Assembly: GCF_012272855.1 (NCBI RefSeq) | Contig: NZ_JAAXCQ010000007.1 | Coordinates: forward strand, 62,001-126,000 | Direction: 5' to 3' | DNA length: 64,000 nucleotides | Source: Arenibacter sp. 6A1 | GTDB taxonomy: Bacteria > Bacteroidota > Bacteroidia > Flavobacteriales > Flavobacteriaceae | Part shown: positions 21,702 to 62,080 of the stretch, in pieces | How positions within the stretch are numbered: position 1 is the first letter of the stretch | Layout of the letters: the number at the start of each line of letters is the position of its first letter | Position numbers and translations under genes: made by a program | The notes under the pieces: model-generated | What the model was told of the DNA's origin: nothing | Seen by the model: only the letters and a program-made list of their open reading frames with translations | Databases searched by the model: none

Positions 21702-23570
21702 ATGAACTTTTCAATAGACGCAAGTACTTTTACGCTAAAACATAACTACAAAGATCATGAAAATCAAATTTTAAATAGAAACGTTAAATATGTAATTCCT
21801 ATTTATCAGCGTCCCTACTCTTGGACAGAAAGTCAAATACAAAAATTTATTTCAGATATTTTTATTTCGTTTTGGGGCTATAATAAAAGTAGTCATTCTG
21901 AACCTATGTTTATAGGTACTATGCAGTTATCAAACATCCAGAATAACGAACAGGACATTATCGACGGACAGCAAAGAATAAGTACATTTTTAATTCTTTT
22001 AAAAGTTTTAAAATTAGAATATCCGAATTTAAAAGAGTTAGAATCATTAACCTTCGATTGGCTAAAAACTAAAGTTAATAGTGGAAAACAACAAGAGAAA
22101 TTAATGGAGTTAATAAATACAACTTCTTTAGATAATCTGACAGAAACTGGTCTGAATAAATACCTTGAGAATGCAATCCTAATTCGTCAAATTTTTCTTA
22201 AAAATATTAAACAACGTAACGAAGATGACATTTCTTTTAATCCAAAAAGCTTTTTAGAGTATCTATATTCTAATATCTACTTTGTTGTTATAGAAACAAA
22301 TGCGAGTTTATCAAAAACACTTCAAATTTTTGATGCCATTAATACCACAGGTTTAGACTTAAATGCTGGAGATATTTTTAAAATTAGAATGTTTGAGTAC
22401 CTAAATAAAAATGGCGATAACGATAGCATATTTAATGAAATCAGCAAACTCTACGAAAAAATAGATGCAAAAAACAAAGAAGTTGAAACGCGATTAACAG
22501 ATATAAGAGGAATACTAAACATATATCAATTCTATCTTATTGCTAAATACAAATTACCAACTGTTTTATACTCTTATGGTGTAGATACTTTCTACGACCG
22601 ACTTTTTGAAACATTATTTAACATCAATAAATGGGAACATTTCAAAAACAATGTAGAAGATAATAAAATAGCTTTGTCGTTGGAGGAAATTAACAATATT
22701 ATATACCTACGGTACGAATGGGAAATTAAATGGCGTAAAAATGAATATGGAAATGTGAAAAATAAAGGGTTACAATATTTGTGGTGGTGGTCAAGATATA
22801 GTAAATTTTGGATATTCAAATTTGTTTTCCTATTCATTTATAAAGATGACCCTATTCGCTACAACAAACTTTATGAGTTTTCAGAAAAATTAATTAAAGT
22901 TTACTTATTATACAGCATTGTTTATCAAAAGTCTGTAAACAAAATTAAAGGTCAATTTAACAACCAATTACTTGATTTGTTAGTTAATGGTAACTATTCA
23001 GATTTAATTAATCACATTGACCAAAAACTATTAACAGGAAGTGATTGGGAGAAAAACAGATTTAAAGAAATCTTAACCGGAGACATCTTATATAGTAGTA
23101 AAGTGAAAAATATTCTTTGCAGACTATCTGCACTTTTGGAAGAGAATTATACAAGTGAAAATCCAGAAGAAATAAGGTTAATAACTGAAAAGTTATTTCA
23201 TCTTCAAATAGATATTGAACACATTCAGTCTTATAATGATGAAAATTTAGAGGAACGAGATAGAGTAAAACAAACTTGGGGCGACAATTTAAACTCTCTT
23301 GGAAACTTGGTTGTCTTAGAACAAAATATAAATCGTTCTATCAACAATTCAGAAAATAAAAAGCTTGAAAACTATAAATTAAGTTCATACAACATTGTTA
23401 ATAAAATTCTTGTTGACCAATATGACAATTGGAATTTAAACAAATGTTTATTACGTAAATCTTACGAGATTTCTAAAATTTGTGAGTACGTTATTGAAAC
23501 AAAAGTAACTGTGCCTAGACGAGTAGGTAAAGGGTCGACTCACCCCGACAATGTCTCGCTGACTATGTAA
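21702..23570 (+). CDS. DUF262-DUF1524 protein, GmrSD/SspE-type modification-dependent restriction enzyme
   Basis: A 622-residue soluble protein. The N-terminal DUF262 domain carries VIPIYQRPYSWT (31-42) and IIDGQQRIST (86-95), the nucleotide-binding ParB-like motif. The C-terminal DUF1524 domain has DIEHIQ (about 503-508) and NSLGNLVVLEQNINRS (about 530-545), the H...N...N pattern of a His-Me finger nuclease. Family members cut DNA with modified bases (GmrSD, BrxU) or act with phosphorothioation (SspE). No dnd/ssp genes are in the window, so a stand-alone type IV role is more likely. Codon use is AT-rich. The last dozen residues (KGSTHPDNVSLTM) look unlike the domain and may come from a junction. 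Confidence 0.85.
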   Translation: MNFSIDASTFTLKHNYKDHENQILNRNVKYVIPIYQRPYSWTESQIQKFISDIFISFWGYNKSSHSEPMFIGTMQLSNIQNNEQDIIDGQQRISTFLILLKVLKLEYPNLKELESLTFDWLKTKVNSGKQQEKLMELINTTSLDNLTETGLNKYLENAILIRQIFLKNIKQRNEDDISFNPKSFLEYLYSNIYFVVIETNASLSKTLQIFDAINTTGLDLNAGDIFKIRMFEYLNKNGDNDSIFNEISKLYEKIDAKNKEVETRLTDIRGILNIYQFYLIAKYKLPTVLYSYGVDTFYDRLFETLFNINKWEHFKNNVEDNKIALSLEEINNIIYLRYEWEIKWRKNEYGNVKNKGLQYLWWWSRYSKFWIFKFVFLFIYKDDPIRYNKLYEFSEKLIKVYLLYSIVYQKSVNKIKGQFNNQLLDLLVNGNYSDLINHIDQKLLTGSDWEKNRFKEILTGDILYSSKVKNILCRLSALLEENYTSENPEEIRLITEKLFHLQIDIEHIQSYNDENLEERDRVKQTWGDNLNSLGNLVVLEQNINRSINNSENKKLENYKLSSYNIVNKILVDQYDNWNLNKCLLRKSYEISKICEYVIETKVTVPRRVGKGSTHPDNVSLTM

Positions 23571-23582
23571 GTTTAAAACAAC

Positions 23583-23616
23583 AGGGGTTAAACTTTTAAA
23601 AGTCTGCCCCTTTTTT
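23583..23616 (+). terminator. Terminator after the DUF262 gene
   Basis: AGGGG (23583-23587) pairs with CCCCT (23607-23611) around an inner self-complementary ACTTTTAAAAGT, followed by a T-run. Confidence 0.6.
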
Positions 23617-23830
23617 CATAGATCATCAGTAACTGATTCTTATGCGACTCCACGTATATGCTTGGTCTTGGTCAATGCCCAGACAGATCAGGTTTTTCCG
23701 TTTCCTTCCCGCCAGCGGCCTCATTCACTAAAATAGTCTACTAGAAAATTTCTTGACGTTCTGCCTTCCAAGAATGTCATGATCAGTAGCGTGGTCGGTT
23801 TTTCTAGCAATTTTAATCCTTTCATCGGTT

Positions 23831-24004
23831 AAAATATTTTCTTACAAAAAATAATTTTGCTTAATTGAAGCTCTTGATTGGCTTCGCTCGCTATGTGCTG
23901 AGGCAAAATTGCTTCGCTCAGGAAGTCCTGTTTAAAACGAAACCATATACTAGAACATAACCAAATAAGGGCTATGTAGACATTTATAAATAATAGCAAC
24001 CTTA
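23831..24004 (+). repeat. RAYT upstream flank, direct-repeat copy 1
   Basis: Starts AAAATATTTTCTTACAAA and contains GGCTTCGCTC and CAGGAAGTCCTGTTTAAAA, then a weaker match up to the RAYT start. It corresponds to 26089-26224 in the same orientation; this copy has an extra stretch with a second GCTTCGCTC. The rest of the 23617-24022 gap shows no ORF. Confidence 0.65.
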
Positions 24005-24022
24005 ACTGTATCTATAAAACCA

Positions 24023-24679
24023 ATGTCTGATAAATTCCAAAATAAATACCGGATTCCTTCTGCTCGGATGAAAAATTGGGATTATAGTTGGAATGCCCCT
24101 TATTTTGTAACCATCTGCACAAAGAACAAGGAACATTTTTTTGGTGAGGTAGTAACTACTACTGACTTGGGCACGTCCACCATGGAATTGTCCGAAACTG
24201 GAAAAATGGCAGAAAAATATTGGTCTGAAATACCACAACATTTTCCTTTTGTAGCATTAGGTGCCTATGTGGTAATGCCAAATCATGTGCATGGTGTCAT
24301 TATTATTCATAAAACCGATGATAGAATTAATGGCGAAAAAAACGATAGAGGGTCCGTGGTAGAGACGCCCAAATTGGGCGTCTCTACGAACAAATCCCTT
24401 GACGACGCAATTTCCAATAATTCCACAACCAATCCGTATACCCCCATGAATCGCACAGCCTCCGCATCCCAGAAATGGAAATCAGGCACATTGGGTGTCA
24501 TTATCAATCAATACAAACGAATTTGCACCATTAATGCCCGTAAGATTCATGCTGGTTTTGCTTGGCAACCACGTTTTTACGATCATATCATTCGTTCCAA
24601 CGAATCGTTTCTAGAAATAGAAACCTATATTCACGAAAACCCTGAAAAATGGAGTCATGATAAATTTAATAATCTTTAA
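24023..24679 (+). CDS. REP-associated tyrosine transposase (RAYT, IS200-like Y1 family)
   Basis: A 218-residue protein. The histidine pair is in MPNHVHGV (His88, His90); the C-terminal signature WQPRFYDHIIR...YIHENPEKW is typical of RAYT proteins, and the catalytic tyrosine is probably in NQYKR near residue 168. Y1 transposases cut single-stranded DNA at hairpins; RAYTs are linked to REP palindromes rather than to their own IS ends. A 27-nt palindrome lies in frame inside the gene (residues about 113-121, ETPKLGVST). A broken tandem copy follows. The gene appears intact. Confidence 0.88.
   Translation: MSDKFQNKYRIPSARMKNWDYSWNAPYFVTICTKNKEHFFGEVVTTTDLGTSTMELSETGKMAEKYWSEIPQHFPFVALGAYVVMPNHVHGVIIIHKTDDRINGEKNDRGSVVETPKLGVSTNKSLDDAISNNSTTNPYTPMNRTASASQKWKSGTLGVIINQYKRICTINARKIHAGFAWQPRFYDHIIRSNESFLEIETYIHENPEKWSHDKFNNL
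24360..24386. repeat. 27-nt palindrome inside the RAYT gene (copy 1)
   Basis: The arms TAGAGACGCCCAA and TTGGGCGTCTCTA are exact reverse complements around one A. It is translated in frame as part of the transposase. Confidence 0.85.
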
Positions 24680-24725
24680 ACAGCATGAAGGATAGACGGT
24701 TAGACATCCAAATGGATGTTGTAGC

Positions 24726-25200
24726 AAATACCGGATTCCTTCCGCGCGAATGAAAAATTGGGATTATGGTTGGAATGCCCCTTATTTTGTAACCATCTGC
24801 ACAAAGAACAAGGAACATTTTTTTGGTGAGGTAGTAACTACTACTGACTTGGGCACGTCCACCATGGAATTGTCCGAAACTAGAAAAATGGCAGAAAAAT
24901 ACTGGTCTGAAATACCACATCATTTTCCTTTTGTAGCATTGGCTGCCTATGTGGTAATGCCAAATCATATGCATGGTGTCCTTATTATTCATAAAACCGA
25001 TGCTAAATTTAATGGCAATAATGTCGAAAAAAACGATAGAAGGCCCGTCGTAGAGACGCCCAATTTGGGCGTCTCTACGAACAAATCCCTTTACGACGCA
25101 AATTCCGATAATTCCACCTTCCATCCGTACACCCCTATGAATCCCACCCCCTCCGCATCCCAGAAATGGAAATAAGATATATTGGGTGTCATTATCAATC
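24726..25200 (+). pseudogene. Tandem RAYT copy, truncated at both ends
   Basis: Very similar to 24045-24520 of the intact RAYT gene. It lacks the first codons: homology begins at AAATACCGGATTCC, just after a small palindrome ACATCCA/TGGATGT at 24704-24719. The serine codon TCA of the intact copy is TAA here, ending the frame at 25175, and similarity stops about 25 nt later. The MPNHMHGV histidines are kept but the C-terminal signature is lost, so it cannot be an active transposase. The best remaining frame is 24750-25175. Confidence 0.85.
25051..25077. repeat. 27-nt palindrome inside the RAYT pseudogene (copy 2)
   Basis: Same arms as 24360-24386 with T instead of A in the centre. The arms are unchanged although the gene is dead. 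Confidence 0.85.
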
Positions 25201-25390
25201 ATCACCAAAATTTCCAGAAAGAAACCGACTGATAAGCACTTTGCGGCAAGGAATTTGAACAAAAACAACCAACCATAAAAAATTGATTCACAGAATATTT
25301 AGAATAAATTTAAAATAACTACGTTTTTGGATTAGGGATTTTATCGACTTATTTGTTTTATGTAAAAACAATTAACAAAAATTACTATAA

Positions 25391-25819
25391 ATGAAAAGAT
25401 CATATTTTAAGCTACTTACGATTTTAACTGTAATGACATTATTTCTAGGAACAATTACATCTTGTTCTGATGATGATGATGCAAGGGTGAATATTACTGT
25501 CAATGAAGGACCTTCTGGAGATATTGGTGGAGATTTTACTGGTAATGGTGGAAATGGCTCAAGAACTATCAATTGGACCAACAACTTGGCAACGGCTGAC
25601 TATAACGCCGATATTACTGCCACAGTATCTGGAATATTTCAAATTGTAGTAGCAGATGCAAATGGAACTATAGTTCTTGACAAAACTCTGAATGGTAAAA
25701 CCGAACCCGATAGTATAGATGGGGTAACAAGAGCTGGAGAACCTGGAAATTGGACTGTTACTATTACGCTGACTTCATTTAATGGAGACGGAAGTTATTC
25801 ATTAAGTGCTGGAGACTAA
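25391..25819 (+). CDS. Small acidic lipoprotein, candidate surface-exposed
   Basis: A 142-residue protein: signal MKRSYFKLLTILTVMTLFLGTITSC with lipobox, then SDDDD directly after the cysteine. Acidic stretches like S-D-D at this point are the lipoprotein export signal described for flavobacteria, so surface exposure is plausible. The rest is glycine/asparagine-rich, then a Ser/Thr-rich beta sandwich (WTVTITLTSFNGDGSYSLSAGD). No known family recognised. It has its own terminator. Confidence 0.7.
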   Translation: MKRSYFKLLTILTVMTLFLGTITSCSDDDDARVNITVNEGPSGDIGGDFTGNGGNGSRTINWTNNLATADYNADITATVSGIFQIVVADANGTIVLDKTLNGKTEPDSIDGVTRAGEPGNWTVTITLTSFNGDGSYSLSAGD

Positions 25820-25853
25820 TCGTAGTTGATACATATATAAATTAATAAAATAG

Positions 25854-25882
25854 GGCTGTCATTAAATTGATAGCCTTTTTTT
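25854..25882 (+). terminator. Terminator after the accessory lipoprotein gene
   Basis: GGCTGTCA (25854-25861) pairs with TGATAGCC (25868-25875, one G-U pair) and is followed by seven T. The remaining 25883-26088 stretch shows nothing. Confidence 0.75.
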
Positions 25883-26088
25883 ATATGCTATATATGAAAT
25901 CTACAGCCAATAATTATAATAAAAAGTATTCGGCCCGCCGAAATATACCAAGGCCGAATATCTTGCCCACAGATATCCCCCTGCTCTACCCTATAAACCT
26001 TAAAACATTGTTATAAAAAGCGCCTTTCTTAAGGCTGTTTTGTTTTTTAAAAGTGACTTGCTCCCGTCTAATGAATAGATTCTATTTG

Positions 26089-26224
26089 AAATATTTTCTT
26101 ACAAATAATATTTTCCCTAAATTGAAGCTCTAGATCGGCTTCGCTCAGGAAGTCCTGTTTAAAACGAAACCATACATTAGAAATTGACTAGAGAAGGTTT
26201 AAGTAGATATTTATAAAACAACCT
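26089..26224 (+). repeat. RAYT upstream flank, direct-repeat copy 2
   Basis: Matches 23831-24004: ATATTTTCTTACAAA, TCGGCTTCGCTCAGGAAGT, CCTGTTTAAAACGAAACCATA, then AGTAGATATTTATAAA. No transposase follows; a 49-codon zinc-ribbon ORF does. Confidence 0.65.
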
Positions 26225-26273
26225 AATTTACAAACAGTTAACCATACCAATAACTTATTTAAATAATAAAAAA

Positions 26274-26423
26274 ATGCCCATATTAAGAAATCTAAAATGC
26301 GGTATCTGTAAAGCTAAAAGCTCTCAAGGAGATGTAATATACGGTAAACCAGTAGCTTATAACCCTACAGAAGAACAAAAAAAATGTAACCACATTTGGC
26401 TTAATGATGATTCATTTTTTTAA
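26274..26423 (+). CDS. 49-residue putative zinc-ribbon protein
   Basis: ATG MPILRNLKCGICKAKSSQGD... ending KKCNHIWLNDDSFF. Cys9-x2-Cys12 and Cys38-x-His40 could bind one zinc. There is no signal peptide. It is short, so coding status is uncertain, but the Cys/His pairs and the similarity in style to the 26720 ORF support it. Confidence 0.45.
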   Translation: MPILRNLKCGICKAKSSQGDVIYGKPVAYNPTEEQKKCNHIWLNDDSFF

Positions 26424-26490
26424 AGATTTAGTTGATCTTTAAACCGCCAGTTTCTATAATTAGACGCTCATTGTAGACTACTTACTCGGA

Positions 26491-26649
26491 ATGAAAGCAA
26501 ATAGATATATCTTGGAGCATATAGTTAGAAGGAATAGTAAAAGAAAGGAAACAATTGAAAAATGTAATGACGCCACATTGGATATTGTTATAAAAACAAA
26601 TCCGATTAAAAGATTAATGGCAGAATTGCACACGGATATTGCGAGGTAG
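26491..26649 (+). CDS. 52-codon basic ORF ended by a palindrome
   Basis: The frame MKANRYILEHIVRRNSKRKE... is rich in Lys/Arg and ends at a TAG that is the first triplet of the palindrome at 26647. It may be a fragment of a longer gene cut by that insertion, or a chance frame. No family recognised. Confidence 0.25.
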   Translation: MKANRYILEHIVRRNSKRKETIEKCNDATLDIVIKTNPIKRLMAELHTDIAR

Positions 26650-26673
26650 AGGCCCCAAAATTGGGCATCTCTA
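26647..26673. repeat. Diverged third copy of the RAYT palindrome
   Basis: Reads TAGAGGCCCCAAA then ATTGGGCATCTCTA. It has the same length as the copies at 24360 and 25051 with a few substitutions, and is outside any transposase gene. Confidence 0.65.
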
Positions 26674-26719
26674 GTTTTGTACCATTCATTAATTATCGAA
26701 TTATTAAAGCCTATTACGA

Positions 26720-26932
26720 ATGATATTTTTTAAGAAAAAAGAACCTCAACCTGTAGAAGTAGCAGGAAATACTTTAAGATGCCCCGTATGCCGCAACGAT
26801 CAATTCTGGAGCAGAAGGGCACAATTGAATTCTGCTGTAGCCTCATTCTTCAGTCTAGATTGGGCCAATAGAAGTGCTAGCTGTTTTGTATGCTCGGAAT
26901 GTACCCACATATCGTGGTTTCTGGGAAAATAA
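26720..26932 (+). CDS. 70-residue zinc-ribbon protein
   Basis: MIFFKKKEPQPVEVAGNTL then RCPVC (Cys21, Cys24) and CSEC (about Cys58, Cys61), a two-knuckle zinc ribbon, ending THISWFLGK. It is probably a small nucleic-acid- or protein-binding factor; the exact family was not identified. It lies just after the palindrome at 26647. Confidence 0.65.
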   Translation: MIFFKKKEPQPVEVAGNTLRCPVCRNDQFWSRRAQLNSAVASFFSLDWANRSASCFVCSECTHISWFLGK

Positions 26933-27027
26933 ATCGTGCTAGTGGTAATTTTATAGCGTACGAAAGAAGAAGGAATCAGGCCTAAATTTACATTTACCGG
27001 ATTCATCAACCCAAAAAAATCGCAAAA

Positions 27028-27887: not shown

Positions 27888-30800
27888 TTACGGGATCACA
27901 TGAACCCACATCCCTTTTGTACGCGCCTTATAATCATTATCGTACATAGATTGCGCCTGTATCCCTGGCAAATAATATTTTCCAAGGAAGGACGCATTTA
28001 GCAATACCCTAAAGGTTTTGGTTTCATTTTTCTTCATATCAAAATAGAAATTCGCCCTATCATCCCTCAGATCGGTATGGGTAACATCATTCTCTTCAAA
28101 ATCGCCAAAGTCTGTAAATCTCGTATTCACTATCTCCCAACCGCTTGGAAATATTTGTGTTAGGGCTACATTTTTAATAGTATTCGCGCTGGTATTGGTC
28201 AGGGTGACCTCTGCTACAAAATCGGTTCCTTGTCCTAGGGAAGTAGGGTCTAGTTTAGATCCGTTCCTGCCTTTATAGACCACTTTGGCCACTAAATTTT
28301 GCTGTTGTTCCTGTTCTTCCCCTACTGGTAGCACTCCACTATTTAAGACCCCGACGTACAGCGTATTGTTCCCGGTATTCTTCAAAACGAGCTTATTATT
28401 TCCGTTTTTGATATTCAGAGAGCTATTGGCCAAGGGTTTTTCCGTGGCTACATTGTCAGTTTTCCCCTGTAATGTTATACTGGCCGCTATGCCCTTGCCT
28501 CCCAACATTCCGGCAAATTTTGCCATGGCCAGTAGACAATAGCTAGTGGTTTGGGTATTCATCCATTGATCTTTACTTAATTCCTTGGCTAGGACTTTTG
28601 CTAATTCTTGGGCCTCTACCTTATCTTTTAGCAGTACAAAAGTTTCTAGAGCCATTGCCCTATTTCTTTCGGAAGACCCAAAGGTTAGATCATTGAATCG
28701 GTTCCTGTCAAAATCAAAGTTTGCGGACTGCACCAAATCTTTTGCGATATTGTTTTGCCCTATGAGGGCATAGCTTGCCGCCAAACGGTATTTGGCTTCA
28801 TTAGACAAGGTAGCTGTTTCCCTGAGTCTGTTCATAGAGGCAATATCCGAATTCCCGGAAAGGGCAAGGGTATACAACCGATATGCCTGGGCCAAATCTG
28901 AGGCATTGGCTTCTGCCCGCCATTGTTTGGCGCGATTCTGTTGGTACTGTATCCATGCCGATTTGAATCCCAAGGGCAGGACATAACCTTTGTTTGCTGC
29001 TTCCAATAAAAAATGCCCTGCAAAGGAGGTACTCCAATCATCGGCATTTTGTTGTCCTGGCCAATACGAGAAACCTCCATTCGCAATTTGTGATGCCCCC
29101 AAGCGTTTTATGGCAGCGGTGACATTTTCTTGAAGCTGTTTTTTTCTAGATGCCGGCACCTCAAAAACATCGGTAAGATATAGTTGCGGAAAGGCAGCCG
29201 CGGTAATTTGTTCCAAGCAGCCATGTGGATATTGAATTAAATATTCCATTCTGCCGTTAAAATTCATGGGCGGAAGGGTAGATAATTCTATTGCTGCCGA
29301 ATTGCTCCCGGGTATCCCAAAAGTTTTTAGGGCAATGGTCTTGGTTTCTCCAGCTTCCAAAGCAAGCTCTTCAAGGCTTGTGGTTACCGGATTTGGGTTC
29401 ACAACATCGATCGGGATTTCGAAAGAGGCGTATTCCCCATTTCCGGAAGCTTCTACCACCACTTTCCCGATCCCATTAAAATCTGCCACGGACAACTGAA
29501 AATACGCCATCTTTTCCTCGGGCTGGGAAAATGTCACGTTTTGCTCCGACCCACCTAGGACGGTAAAGGATGGGTCTTCTTTGATTTTTAAACGCACTTG
29601 TTTTATTTTATTCTCCAGGGCAAAAACGGTTACCGGCAAGGTCACAGATTCGCCCGGGGTAATTTTCCTTGGCAAAGAAGCCAACACCATCAAGGGTTTA
29701 CGAACGGGGGTTGATTTCTCTGCTGTTCCATAGGCTGCTTTTTTGGAATTTCCTGCCACTACCATAGTACGTACTGCTCCAATATATTTAGGGATGGTTA
29801 TTTTGTGCGATTTTGTCTCCCCTTCCTTTAAAGTAAAAGGCCCCAAATGAAGCACCATTGGTTTAAATCGGTTTGCTTTTCTATTTTTAGCGCCTATCAA
29901 CTCCCCATCTCCACCGATGGCAAAAACCTGATCGATTCTGCCCCCGAAAGCGCCAATAACATCGTCGTACACATCCCAGGTTTTTACCCCTAAAGCTTCA
30001 TGGGCATAAAAGGTATTCCATGGATCTGGTGTTTTAAACCGAGAAAGATCTAATATCCCCTCATCAACCACAGCAATCGTATAGGTCATTGCCTTGCCTT
30101 GTTTTTCATTGACCTTAAGGGCAAAACTTTCTTCTGGACGCAATAGCGCCGGCATTGTTATATTAGGTTCTAACTTGGTCGTAGGATTTTCTACGGCAAT
30201 AGGCACCACGCCATACATCCGTATGGGGGAATCGTTTATGGTAGTAGCATGGGGTTGTAACAAGCTTATGCTCAGATAGACATTTGGCGTATGCGCTTCG
30301 GTAATGGGAATTTCAAATTTAGTCTCTCCATTTTGTGTTTCTACCCAAAGGGAATGCAACACCTCTGTGCCATTCTCCAAAGTTACTAAGGCTCTTCCTC
30401 CTTGGGAACTTGGCAGGGTAACGATGGCTTTTTCACCCACCTTATAAGATTCCTTGTCGGTTGAAAACACTAACATAGTAGCGGCAGACGGATCGTTTTT
30501 ACGCGACTTCCCTGCCCAACCCGGCCAATCTACATAGATGGTCTGTCCCGTCGCGTGTTTGCCTTTTTCATCTTCTACGCGAACCAAATACCGGCCCCAT
30601 TCCGGATATTTTAAGGTAAAGGTAAATTCGGCCTTCCCCTTTGCATCGGTGCTTAGGTATTTTTCGAATACTTTTTCCTGGTAATTGTCACTGTTAAAAC
30701 TAGAGAGATTTTCATTGGTAGTTTCCCACCACCATCTCCACTGAACCTTATAAACGCTCGCTTTTAATTTCTCGGCCGCCTTAGGGTTGCCTTTTTCATC

Positions 30801-33398
30801 AACGGTTACTACCTCAAACTTCTGGGGCACATCGGTGAGCAACATCCCTCTTTTCTCATCGCCTTTCGGCGCATTTAAACCTACGTATGTACTATAAGGG
30901 GAAAGGGGCATGCCAAAAACATCCGTACTAAAATCGCCCCCGTTTTCATAAACCTTCGCCAGAAAAACCGCGTTTAACATCCCTGGAGCTTCACTGGTAA
31001 ATTGTGGACGAATTGAAAAAGCAGCCTTTCCCTCGGCGTTGATCTTATTGTTGAACACTAATAGGTCTTCCGATTTAAAAGTGCGGGTAGGATCGTCAAA
31101 AACATAGCCTTCAAAATTTTTAAAATGGGTAGCCTGCGGTTTAAATTTTGCGGTAATATCGGCCTTTAGGTTTTTTGCCGTCGCTCCGTGCAACCAAGCT
31201 ACTTCTAGTTCGCCCTTTATAGGTTTTGCCAAGGATAAAAGCTCTTGGGAAAAGGTCGTATTTATTTTTAAGCGATTTGGTTTTATGGTTTCTATCCTAA
31301 GTTTTTTGACAAATGTGGCTCCGCCCACCGCTACCTTTGCTGTCCAATTCCCAGTAGGGGCATCGGTATCGGTTTTTAGGGTAAAGGCATACATATTATC
31401 TATAGGATTCGTATGCACTTGTCTGGCCACAAGTTTCTGGTACGGATCTATCAGTTCTAACTTTACAGGATGATTTTCTGGAAGTTTATTGGCATTATCG
31501 TTCAACATAAAAGTCAGGTACAAGGTATCCCCTGGACGCCATACCCCACGTTCGCCAAAAATGAAGCCCTTAATTCCTTTTTGGGGCTCTAGGCCAGACA
31601 CCTTAAATTTACTCACCGACAGCGCATTGCCATCATTGAGTTTAATATAGGTTTTTTGTCCTTGGCTTTCCGCGATGGCAAAATAGGCCATGTGCTCCGC
31701 TTCGTATATAGAAGTCCCATCCACACCGGTCGTTACCTGTCCTATAGCTTGTTGCTGATAATTGTAAAAAGTAACTTTGGCCCCGCTAATAGGAGCTGTA
31801 CTCACTAGATCGTTTACACTGACAAAATAACTTTTATTGGTCCCTTTCTTGATGATAACCCCCAGATTGGTCGCTAAAATATTGGTCGAGGCTGTTTTAT
31901 CATAGTAATAGGAAGTATGACAGGGATTATCGCGTTCGTTCCAGTTGTAGTTCTCATAGTAATCTTCGTAATAGGATTCTATTTCGTCCCAACGGCTATC
32001 TTCAGACGCTTGATCAAAATCATCGATCGCCGCATCGCTTTTGTCAAAATTGTTGGACTCGCATTGGTATAAGCTGTAAGTCGGCTTGATACTAAAAGCT
32101 ACCTTGTAAAGGGCCCCGGGCTCTGGACGTATCAGGGATTTTAGATCCAGGGCATGGGCTACCCATTTATCTGCATTCGAGGAAGCATTATTTTGAAGAT
32201 CTAGTTTTATATACGCAATAGGTCTACCTACTTGTTTTAGGTTATAGTCTTCATTTAAATTGTTATCCTGTAAGAACTGTAATATATTATTTTCGAAAAT
32301 CCGATATACTTTTACGTCTACGGCCTTTAGGTTTACTGCCTCAAAATTTATTTTCAGATTATTCGAGGAGGGCAAAATGGTACCATTGGACAATAAGCGA
32401 ACTTCTGGTTTCATTTGTTCAAAAGCCAGCCGTTCTTCGTATTTCGTTTTTAACTTATAGCCATCGATACTTTGAATGCCCTCAAATACTTCAAGCTGTG
32501 GCGTACCGATAACGGCTTTGGAAGGGAAAACTTTTAAGGTATTGCCCACAACATCATAGGTAAGTTCTTTGGCACCTTCCAAAACAACCAGCCCTTTAAA
32601 ATTTTGTTCTTTCTTAAGAGGGTCAGAAAAGTTAATACGCAACATCTGTTGCGCTCCGTTGGATACTTCGACATTGAGAATGCTAAAATTATTTTTACCA
32701 GGAATTACTATCGTATTGGCCCCCTTACTTTCAATTCCCAAATGAGCTCCACTCCACCGTATCTCTAATTCACTGTCCTCCTCAAATCTCCGGATACTGT
32801 CTATTTTAAAATAAAATTGGGTTCCTTTACCTATGGCTGTTTCAAATTTTATGGGAATGTCATTGCCATTTTGTGATGCCTCGACCATTTTTTTGGCCTT
32901 TTCCAAACTTAATTGATCTGCACTTTTTATATGTCCTTCAACAAATTGATACTCTTTAGAGTACGATTGTGGCGCTTGGGCATATACATTAAACTGCTGC
33001 TTTATAGTCTTTACCTGAAAAGTAAAGACGTGCAGCTCCTTTGGAATCTCTGGAATAATTTTCCCTAGGTTTAACCGAAATTTATAGGAAGTATCATGAT
33101 CAAAACCGTTTAGGGGTACAAAAGCCAAAGTAGTACTATTTAGGGCTATCACCTTTCCTTTAAGCTCAGGCGATGGTTGTAACAAATCGTCATGTAGCTC
33201 TTTTCCCTGTTCCCATTCTGCTATTGGGGTAGTGAGCACAACCCGAATTTGATCTTCCGAAGAAATTATACCATGGGACACTTCGTTGATATACTCCTTG
33301 TACCTATTTATATTGTCTATGGCATCTAAAACGGTTTCTTTTTTCTGCTTACAACCGATTAGAAGTATAAATAACACGGAATAGAATATAAATTTCAT
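27888..33398 (-). CDS. Bacterial alpha-2-macroglobulin, thioester-containing lipoprotein
   Basis: A 1836-residue protein starting MKFIFYSVLFILLIGCKQKKE (lipobox, Cys16). It has repeated macroglobulin-type beta domains with an MG2-like segment FIFGERGVWRPGDTLYLTFML, then an alpha-2-macroglobulin core with the thioester motif YPHGCLEQI at about residues 1391-1399. A helical toroid domain (WSTSFAGHFLLEAANKGY) and a final beta domain follow. Such proteins trap attacking proteases in the periplasm and are paired with PBP1C as an envelope-repair module. The intact CLEQ thioester supports an active trap. Confidence 0.93.
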   Translation of the reverse strand: MKFIFYSVLFILLIGCKQKKETVLDAIDNINRYKEYINEVSHGIISSEDQIRVVLTTPIAEWEQGKELHDDLLQPSPELKGKVIALNSTTLAFVPLNGFDHDTSYKFRLNLGKIIPEIPKELHVFTFQVKTIKQQFNVYAQAPQSYSKEYQFVEGHIKSADQLSLEKAKKMVEASQNGNDIPIKFETAIGKGTQFYFKIDSIRRFEEDSELEIRWSGAHLGIESKGANTIVIPGKNNFSILNVEVSNGAQQMLRINFSDPLKKEQNFKGLVVLEGAKELTYDVVGNTLKVFPSKAVIGTPQLEVFEGIQSIDGYKLKTKYEERLAFEQMKPEVRLLSNGTILPSSNNLKINFEAVNLKAVDVKVYRIFENNILQFLQDNNLNEDYNLKQVGRPIAYIKLDLQNNASSNADKWVAHALDLKSLIRPEPGALYKVAFSIKPTYSLYQCESNNFDKSDAAIDDFDQASEDSRWDEIESYYEDYYENYNWNERDNPCHTSYYYDKTASTNILATNLGVIIKKGTNKSYFVSVNDLVSTAPISGAKVTFYNYQQQAIGQVTTGVDGTSIYEAEHMAYFAIAESQGQKTYIKLNDGNALSVSKFKVSGLEPQKGIKGFIFGERGVWRPGDTLYLTFMLNDNANKLPENHPVKLELIDPYQKLVARQVHTNPIDNMYAFTLKTDTDAPTGNWTAKVAVGGATFVKKLRIETIKPNRLKINTTFSQELLSLAKPIKGELEVAWLHGATAKNLKADITAKFKPQATHFKNFEGYVFDDPTRTFKSEDLLVFNNKINAEGKAAFSIRPQFTSEAPGMLNAVFLAKVYENGGDFSTDVFGMPLSPYSTYVGLNAPKGDEKRGMLLTDVPQKFEVVTVDEKGNPKAAEKLKASVYKVQWRWWWETTNENLSSFNSDNYQEKVFEKYLSTDAKGKAEFTFTLKYPEWGRYLVRVEDEKGKHATGQTIYVDWPGWAGKSRKNDPSAATMLVFSTDKESYKVGEKAIVTLPSSQGGRALVTLENGTEVLHSLWVETQNGETKFEIPITEAHTPNVYLSISLLQPHATTINDSPIRMYGVVPIAVENPTTKLEPNITMPALLRPEESFALKVNEKQGKAMTYTIAVVDEGILDLSRFKTPDPWNTFYAHEALGVKTWDVYDDVIGAFGGRIDQVFAIGGDGELIGAKNRKANRFKPMVLHLGPFTLKEGETKSHKITIPKYIGAVRTMVVAGNSKKAAYGTAEKSTPVRKPLMVLASLPRKITPGESVTLPVTVFALENKIKQVRLKIKEDPSFTVLGGSEQNVTFSQPEEKMAYFQLSVADFNGIGKVVVEASGNGEYASFEIPIDVVNPNPVTTSLEELALEAGETKTIALKTFGIPGSNSAAIELSTLPPMNFNGRMEYLIQYPHGCLEQITAAAFPQLYLTDVFEVPASRKKQLQENVTAAIKRLGASQIANGGFSYWPGQQNADDWSTSFAGHFLLEAANKGYVLPLGFKSAWIQYQQNRAKQWRAEANASDLAQAYRLYTLALSGNSDIASMNRLRETATLSNEAKYRLAASYALIGQNNIAKDLVQSANFDFDRNRFNDLTFGSSERNRAMALETFVLLKDKVEAQELAKVLAKELSKDQWMNTQTTSYCLLAMAKFAGMLGGKGIAASITLQGKTDNVATEKPLANSSLNIKNGNNKLVLKNTGNNTLYVGVLNSGVLPVGEEQEQQQNLVAKVVYKGRNGSKLDPTSLGQGTDFVAEVTLTNTSANTIKNVALTQIFPSGWEIVNTRFTDFGDFEENDVTHTDLRDDRANFYFDMKKNETKTFRVLLNASFLGKYYLPGIQAQSMYDNDYKARTKGMWVHVIP

Positions 33399-60970: not shown

Positions 60971-62080
60971 ATGAAAAAAGTACTATTCCTTCTTGTCCCG
61001 ATATGCATCTCCCTTTTACACAGCTGTGGTGAGGTTGCCGCTACCCCTAAAGGAGCATCGGCCATGTCGCTGCCCACGGTTAAAGTAGAAAAAAGATCTG
61101 TAAACAACTTGTCCAAATATCCAGCGAGTATCGAAGGAATGATCAACAGCAAGGTAAGGGCAAAAGTTTCGGGCTACATACAGGAAGTACTGATAGACGA
61201 AGGCCAGCAGGTAAAAAAGGGACAACTTTTATTTACGCTAGAAACCCAAGCCCTATCCCAAGATGCCAGCGCGGCCAAGGCCCGAATAAATGTAGCGCAA
61301 TTAGAGGTTGACAAATTACGCCCCTTGGTTGCAAAAAATATTATAAGCCAGGTGCAATTAGAGACCGCCAAGGCCAATTTAGAGCAGGCAAAAAGCAATT
61401 ACCAAAGTATTGCAGCCAATATTGGGTATGCCAACATCATTAGTCCCGTCGACGGTGTTGTAGGCGCTATTCCTTATAGAAAGGGAAATTTGGTAAGTGC
61501 CCAAGATGCCGTTCCACTGACCACCATTTCGAGCATTGAAAATGTATATGCTTTTTTCTCCATGAACGAGAAGGAGCTTATTAAATTTTTGCGCGAAACC
61601 GAAGGAAAAACACAGGAAGAAAAAGCCAAGAATCTACCAGAGGTGCAGCTATTATTGGCCGACGGGTCGCTTTACGAGCACTCGGGGACGATAGAAACCA
61701 TTACTGGAGAAGTAAATCCGGCCACGGGAACGGTAAAATTCAGAGCTACTTTTCCTAACGAAATGGGACTTTTAAGAAATGGCAGTAGCGGCACGATTAT
61801 CCTTCCTTCAGAACTGAACGATGTATTGGTGGTTCCTTCTTTGTCTACCTACGAACAACAGGGCAAAAAATTTGTGTACTTGGTAGACGGAGATACACTG
61901 GTCCCCAGAGCTGTTAGGTTACTTGCAGATGTTGACGGCATTTCAGTAGTCGAGGGCATTGAAGAAGGCCAGCAAATTTTGGCCAAAGGCCTTGGAAAAG
62001 TAAGGGCTGGTACCCAAATAGTACCGGAATTAACTTCTTTCGACGAAATCATCAATTCATTCAACACGGTTTTTAAATAA
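60971..62080 (+). CDS. RND efflux periplasmic adaptor (membrane fusion protein), lipoprotein
   Basis: A 369-residue protein with a lipobox signal (LLVPICISLLHSC, Cys19). The lipoyl half-motifs VRAKVSGYIQEVLIDEGQQVKKGQLLF and YANIISPVDGVVGAI flank a coiled-coil hairpin (about 90-150), followed by beta-barrel and membrane-proximal domains. It links the inner-membrane pump to an outer-membrane channel. It lies 10 nt before the pump gene. Confidence 0.93.
   Translation: MKKVLFLLVPICISLLHSCGEVAATPKGASAMSLPTVKVEKRSVNNLSKYPASIEGMINSKVRAKVSGYIQEVLIDEGQQVKKGQLLFTLETQALSQDASAAKARINVAQLEVDKLRPLVAKNIISQVQLETAKANLEQAKSNYQSIAANIGYANIISPVDGVVGAIPYRKGNLVSAQDAVPLTTISSIENVYAFFSMNEKELIKFLRETEGKTQEEKAKNLPEVQLLLADGSLYEHSGTIETITGEVNPATGTVKFRATFPNEMGLLRNGSSGTIILPSELNDVLVVPSLSTYEQQGKKFVYLVDGDTLVPRAVRLLADVDGISVVEGIEEGQQILAKGLGKVRAGTQIVPELTSFDEIINSFNTVFK

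Follow-up and report, generated by a model that had tools for sequence, protein, structure and literature searches.

The window, by which we mean the whole 64,000-nt stretch of DNA analysed here (contig NZ_JAAXCQ010000007.1 of Arenibacter sp. 6A1, positions 62,001 to 126,000), carries an intact RAYT gene and a RAYT pseudogene, each with a palindrome that is translated in frame. The features considered below are as follows.

24023..24679, + strand: intact RAYT (TnpAREP, Y1 HUH transposase) of 218 aa, from ORF translation with profile and fold matches
24320..24478, + strand: variable low-confidence loop that holds the palindrome, about residues 100-152, from pLDDT and homologue alignment
24359..24387, + strand: internal double-foot REP palindrome (GTAG..CTAC) of the intact RAYT, 29 nt, 14-bp arms, centre A, residues 113-122
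24464..24547, + strand: ASQKWKSGT and helix alphaC, residues 148-175 (model helix 157-175), from the AlphaFold model and covariation
24726..25208, + strand: RAYT pseudogene, a direct repeat of the intact gene (ORF 24750-25175), cut off before helix alphaC
25048..25080, + strand: palindrome of the pseudogene, 33 nt, 16-bp arms, centre T, read as VETPNLGVST
26646..26673 (within 26642-26673), + strand: degenerate third palindrome copy, 84% of the 32-nt reference

A RAYT gene, its pseudogene and their palindromes

Translation of the intact gene revealed NHVH at residues 87-90, WQ at residues 181-182 and a Y202-xxx-NP motif (YIHENP, residues 202-207). The NCBIfam model REP_Tyr_transpos (NF047646) matched with an E-value of 9.7e-13 but at 48.2 bits, under its cut-off of 80. 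A profile search of the PDB returned one credible match, the E. coli RAYT 4er8 (E 2.7e-6), and the same structure, which is bound to a REP hairpin, was the best PDB match of the fold search (E 1.1e-5, TM-score 0.52 by target length, rmsd 8.0), followed by the ISDra2 and IS608 transposases. We rejected an IS200/IS605 insertion sequence, as the protein has Y-xxx-NP instead of the class 1 Y-xxx-Q and its match to Pfam Y1_Tnp is weak (13.6 bits, under the cut-off of 23). By the motifs described in PMC6006769, the window gene is a RAYT of the TnpAREP subclass 2.4 type.

In the AlphaFold model (mean pLDDT 77.5), the core is predicted well and one loop with low confidence, pLDDT being below 50 at residues 100-113 and 119-152. 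This loop, which is probably disordered, lies between model strand 88-95 and helix 157-175, and its sequence differs widely across the 120 best of 3853 homologous proteins; the original prediction had indeed put the palindrome in a variable loop after the histidine motif. The 27-nt palindrome with 13-bp arms described there is present, but it is only the inner part of the 29-nt and 33-nt palindromes listed above. The two 27-mers (24360-24386 and 25051-25077) differ, as stated, by their central base alone, A in the former and T in the latter. The intact gene reads VETPKLGVST at the palindrome, so that both copies encode the expected ETPKLGVST-like residues (V-E-T-P-K/N-L-G-V-S-T).

The pseudogene is 95% and 86% identical to the intact RAYT in two blocks, and its frame stops at 25173-25175, ahead of the helix and the catalytic-tyrosine region. 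Its arms are perfect, as the original prediction observed. However, the two copies share 90.4% of their aligned bases (413/457) beyond the palindrome, so the 28 unchanged arm bases of the dead copy have a probability of about 0.06. Taken alone this is weak evidence, and with two further genome copies decayed we discarded the perfect arms as proof of selection at the DNA level.

The degenerate third copy has short weak RAYT matches nearby, at a nearly constant offset from 26413, and may belong to the remains of an old RAYT. Upstream of the intact RAYT lies a block (23829-23990) that recurs with 82-85% identity about 2.2 kb downstream, at 26086-26217 and close to this third copy; the RAYT unit may have been duplicated here long ago. 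With up to 3 mismatches allowed, the 27-mer had no match in the window beyond its two known positions (100 shuffles, mean 0), and Rfam gave no match in 23500-27000. On one side of these elements, a 622-aa ORF (21702-23570) carries YVIPIYQRPYSW and DGQQR near its start, and may be a DUF262-type protein; on the other, an 1836-aa ORF (27888-33398, - strand) with a YPHGCLEQ motif presumably resembles a bacterial alpha-2-macroglobulin.

Copies of the palindrome in the same genome and genus

The strict hairpin pattern GTAGRGAC..GTCYCTAC occurred six times in the 4.67-Mb genome, always with the core GCCCAAnTTGGGC, while a reversed-pattern control gave 0 matches. Two of the six are the window copies; the search for the palindrome elsewhere, proposed with the original prediction, thereby yielded perfect copies at four further places. 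The hairpins at C46:16345 and C11:333348 lie in RAYT relics that match the window gene at 75% over 183 nt and 80% over 116 nt, respectively, and these matches include the palindrome unchanged; the two relics are 88% alike and hence not independent. Those at C11:302829 and C11:318487 have only some 45 nt in common with the RAYT region. With two or more of the four perfect copies beyond the window located in RAYT relics, the palindrome could have spread by gene duplication rather than by REP mobility. Two copies have decayed and lost their symmetry (the third window copy, and C2:164550 with 3 mismatches in 25), which counts against the explanation that we favour below. Within 1 kb of the window RAYT, only the internal copy of the pseudogene shares its core, and the strict pattern gave no other near one.

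The second RAYT of the genome (L010, G000:C59:180055-180591; 46% identity, helix type NQFGPQSKNLAS) has no internal palindrome of the strict pattern. Across 18 genomes of the genus, RAYT sequence was detected at E 1e-10 in two, namely our own and, as a partial match, G306, and the palindrome was found in the same two. G306 has two copies, of which the one examined lies in a RAYT relic and has perfect arms that run 7 bp past the GTAG foot.

The palindrome in homologous RAYT genes

Because the 120 nearest proteins are biased towards the motif, our counts rest on loci found with the N-terminal profile only. The sample comprised 210 RAYT loci: 80 from named genomes (best 80 of 414), 129 from genomes of the phylum, and the window. 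The phylum loci were drawn among the matches listed, 29 automatically and 100 by hand, and are thus not a random draw; hand-picking left out a few loci near contig ends or in short frames. We called a RAYT complete when three anchors (HUH, helix and WQ) stood in one open frame, which held for 141 of the 210. The other 69 lack an anchor, some being intact genes missed by the patterns, and 31 of them went into a held-out set (see below); the 141 do not include L010.

A perfect palindrome with arms of at least 9 bp was found in the loop between the HUH motif and the helix in 100 of the 141 complete RAYTs (71%, the window's included), compared to 0.9 expected when the same peptides are synonymously recoded with pooled codon usage. 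For arms of at least 14 bp, the counts were 54 observed and 0.025 expected. The outcome that would have spoken against the original prediction, the same residues encoded by non-palindromic codons, did not occur, as the loops of homologues are palindromic far beyond what their peptides need. Its other check, a search for homologues without the palindrome, found 41 complete RAYTs of 141 that lack an internal one, which counts against our best explanation. The frame of the foot could be placed in 52 of the 100 palindromes and was VET in 38, RDA in 14 and the frame that reads TAG as a stop in none; two reading frames are thus in use and the encoded peptides differ. The cores are diverse (GTTGCA, GCGATT, AAGGCA, AGGGCA, GCAAAA and ACGGCA among others), and so is the distance from the HUH motif (quartiles 10-31 codons). 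In the foot region, 9 paired double changes were counted in 475 cells (95 palindromes by 5 positions), and 16 double changes were seen compared to 4.6 expected, which is suggestive at most of compensatory change. The comparison as a whole shows, as far as sequences can, a palindrome that is common in the RAYT family and maintained as DNA symmetry, not as a peptide.

In-frame REP palindromes also occur in a second, N-terminal loop, at about codons 40-53 (L060, L061, L062, L063, L086, L102 and L169; 5 of the 141 complete RAYTs), and L060 has one at its C terminus too. The N-terminal core of L063 is of another type than its own helix class, a point against a match between the two. The loops of P0031, P0088 and P0028 contain repeated LGVST-like pieces; the palindrome-derived segment seems to expand in tandem in these proteins.

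Covariation of the core and helix alphaC

Removal of 4 near-duplicates from the 100 palindromic loci left 96 rows; of their 4560 pairs, 4409 have N-domains that differ at 35-65% of residues. Two mis-anchored rows were also removed, leaving 94 for the covariation analysis. Core distance correlated with distance in a 17-residue segment whose last residue is the helix Y (partial r 0.445 with N- and C-part distances controlled for, n=94, p 0.001, the floor of 1000 permutations), while a control segment of 20 residues directly upstream of the loop did not (partial r -0.07 with the core, n=94). In the 24 rows whose palindrome is nearer the upstream side, the helix segment still gave 0.445 compared to -0.23 for the upstream control, and where at least 20 codons separate palindrome and motif (n=24) r was 0.59. 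A correlation was also seen for the 17 residues that follow the motif and include the remainder of the helix (0.334), so that the signal is not confined to the motif, which counts against our best explanation. Single N-part columns reached at most 0.195, and the N- and C-parts averaged 0.00. The strongest columns lie just before the helix (Q150, K151 and W152 in the window RAYT) and within it, up to a few residues past YK; by eye, the helix positions are spaced roughly as one face. One strong column presumably corresponds to K82 of the E. coli RAYT, by our own alignment. K82 contacts the bulge of the REP (PMC8266576). The core thus covaries, beyond overall relatedness, with the presumed REP-binding helix just downstream.

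The helix also predicts the core. The nearest helix (24 residues) gave an identical 6-nt half-core in 43 of 94 rows, compared to 19 for the nearest N-domain and 3.1 by chance; when relatives at less than 40% N-domain distance were excluded, the figures were 35, 6 and 2.2 of 94. At least 5 of 6 core bases were right in 25 of the 31 held-out loci, 12 of them exact (mean 5.16, random 2.33); these are loci that failed the anchors yet have a palindrome and a recognisable helix, and five of them have one helix sequence in common. A further test took RAYTs that lack an internal palindrome and have foot-bearing hairpins no more than 300 bp away; the prediction reached 5 or more of 6 bases in 13 of 19 (mean 4.74, random 2.38). 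Phylogenetically, neither set is independent of the rows used for training, which include a close relative of one of the 19. The failures, which count against the rule, were L154, L204 and L216 (1-2 of 6) and L089, L169 and L181 (4 of 6).

The rows were also sorted into six core and motif classes, whose limits were set with the data in view. Of the 94 rows, 62 matched in both, 24 fell in neither class, 8 in one only, and none was crossed. On a tree from which loop and helix were left out, the core class changes 40 times, and so does the motif class. Independent pairs on supported branches numbered 1-3 per class, with none opposite and none significant, and the window's class sometimes showed no difference. 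Comparison shows the core to match helix alphaC of the same protein and, where present, the REP copies near the gene, a correspondence read from sequences.

Hairpins outside the gene and extended arms

In the named genomes, a RAYT's own core was also found outside the gene in 13 of 40 loci, within 200 bp in 12 of the 13 (mean 0.40, compared to 0.012 for other cores). The strict hairpin was present in 60 of 118 RAYT-positive phylum genomes compared to 18 of 178 RAYT-negative ones (Fisher p 1e-14, odds ratio 9.2), with a median of 3 hairpins among the 60; the 58 of 118 RAYT-positive genomes without the strict GTAGRGAC pattern count against our best explanation. Among 14 genomes listed in full, the sole hairpin of the pattern in G013 and G137 is the one inside the RAYT gene, and G023 has none. 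The 18 genomes with double-foot hairpins and no RAYT at E 1e-15 (G260, G031 and G055 are examples) have either lost a RAYT and kept its hairpins as remains, or encode one that has diverged beyond the reach of the profile. We also considered whether flanking hairpins (within 300 bp) compensate for a missing internal REP and saw no clear sign of it (20/41 compared to 37/98).

Arms extended by at least 6 bp into the flanks in 14 of 138 distinct double-foot hairpins, inside and outside genes, where shuffled flanks would give 0.2. They represent fewer than 14 events, because a few are nested or occupy the same site in related genomes. The added sequence differs between most of them. Extensions of 6-13 bp, mostly of locus-specific flanks, were seen at L143:1810, L065:9590, L040:728, L179:514, L248:1636, L201:1474 and others. 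PMC6006769 proposes a 'central deletion of a dimer'. By our reasoning, such a deletion alone does not yield extended arms whereas hairpin-templated copying would, and the extended arms suggest fold-back copying in place.

Discussion

The enzyme and the palindrome inside its gene are most likely cognate. The claim that a REP-type palindrome within a RAYT is a candidate substrate has gained good support, from the genome copies and from the loop symmetry in homologues. Our best explanation, which we consider probable though well short of assured, is that the palindrome is the cognate double-foot REP of its RAYT, carried in frame between the HUH strand and alphaC, together with the following steps. 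When the gene is single-stranded, as on the lagging-strand template, the in-gene sequence would fold into a hairpin; the enzyme would bind it through the GTAG foot, alphaC reading the core, and could nick and carry out strand transfer there. With less assurance, the in-gene copy may be both the founding and the last-surviving REP, from which the few dispersed copies derive, and since the substrate lies inside the gene, enzyme and target might be inseparable by horizontal transfer or deletion. A wider proposal, which we put forward tentatively and think more doubtful than not, is that subclass 2.4 RAYT genes are self-contained units of enzyme and substrate: the coding sequence would be a REP master copy held by selection, alphaC and a few preceding residues would read the core by a near one-to-one code learnable from gene sequences, and in-place copying from flank to flank would keep the arms perfect and sometimes lengthen them.

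Among the roles of master copy, regulator and passenger, the last is the main rival. RAYTs may insert REPs into a permissive loop close to where these originate, and the gene would tolerate them there, their position within it being functionless; this comes close to the view in PMC6006769 that they have little impact on protein activity, and its chance falls somewhat below even. The low confidence of the loop in the model, the palindromes in the N-terminal loop (5/141) and at the C terminus of L060, and the 41 complete RAYTs without one all agree with such tolerance. It sits poorly with long perfect arms in 71% of divergent RAYTs and with genomes that have no hairpin of the pattern beyond the in-gene copy. 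A regulatory role, in which the RAYT restrains its own production by binding to the hairpin in its mRNA or DNA, would make use of a matching hairpin that lies within the transcript and covaries with the enzyme. We regard it as unlikely, given that the distance from the HUH motif varies and that the TnpAREP proteins studied so far recognise single-stranded DNA (PMC8266576).

The match of helix and core might instead reflect mere shared descent, or joint transfer of loop and helix as one cassette: the two are neighbours within the gene, related RAYTs make up most of several core types, and the held-out loci are not independent of the training rows. Yet the core is predicted much better from helix than from N-domain neighbours once close relatives are excluded (35 compared to 6 of 94), hairpins outside the gene match too (13/19), and the segment upstream of the loop shows no match, which leaves this reading quite improbable. 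Selection on the VETPxLGVST peptide itself is the least credible reading. Six of its residues are at least 90% conserved in 120 top homologues (best 120 of 3853), a set that includes the query and the window pseudogene, but in other relatives the same kind of palindrome is read as RDAINRVST, VETLHATSL and further peptides, and on the two frames and the synonymous null we rejected a function of the peptide.

Each RAYT gene that carries its presumed target inside is, once sequenced, a labelled pair of enzyme and target; the covariation points to a short helix segment and yields predictions of specificity open to cleavage assay. The original prediction had called a transposase with its own candidate substrate unusual. 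However, double-foot REPs inside TnpAREP subclass 2.4 genes have been published (PMC6006769), and the in-gene REP is thus a known phenomenon that the window case fits. In the open-access literature searched, we found no report of helix-core covariation in subclass 2.4 or of DNA-level maintenance of the in-gene palindrome. As in subclass 2.4 (RAYT group 4), of which PMC6006769 gives the motifs, the window protein has the HUH motif NH[IFV]H as NHVH, the WQ and the class 2 Y-xxx-NP, a variable insertion between beta3 and alphaC, and a GTAG..CTAC double-foot palindrome in frame inside the gene; its YIHENP is one residue off the subclass consensus YIxNNP. A large majority of subclass 2.4 members have REPs within 1 kb of the gene (PMC6006769), whereas the core of the window RAYT recurs at that distance only in the pseudogene.

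Palindromes translated in frame within genes are also known from intragenic GTAG/CGTC REPs and Rickettsia RPEs, but the host genes described in PMC3733652 serve DNA repair, synthesis and so on and are not the cognate transposase. E. coli TnpAREP with its REP (PDB 4er8) shares the fold of the window protein, and its helix alpha3 contacts the hairpin (PMC8266576). It differs in belonging to group 2, not group 4, and in having REPs outside the gene, with a bulged stem. According to the same paper, groups 2 and 3 were tested in vitro, and contact of alpha3 with the perfect-palindrome REPs of group 3 was left as speculation. The IS200/IS605 transposases (IS608 and ISDra2) have the same Y1 HUH fold and hairpin substrates, but their hairpins border the element at its ends (PMC8266576), unlike the palindrome of the window RAYT, which lies inside the gene.
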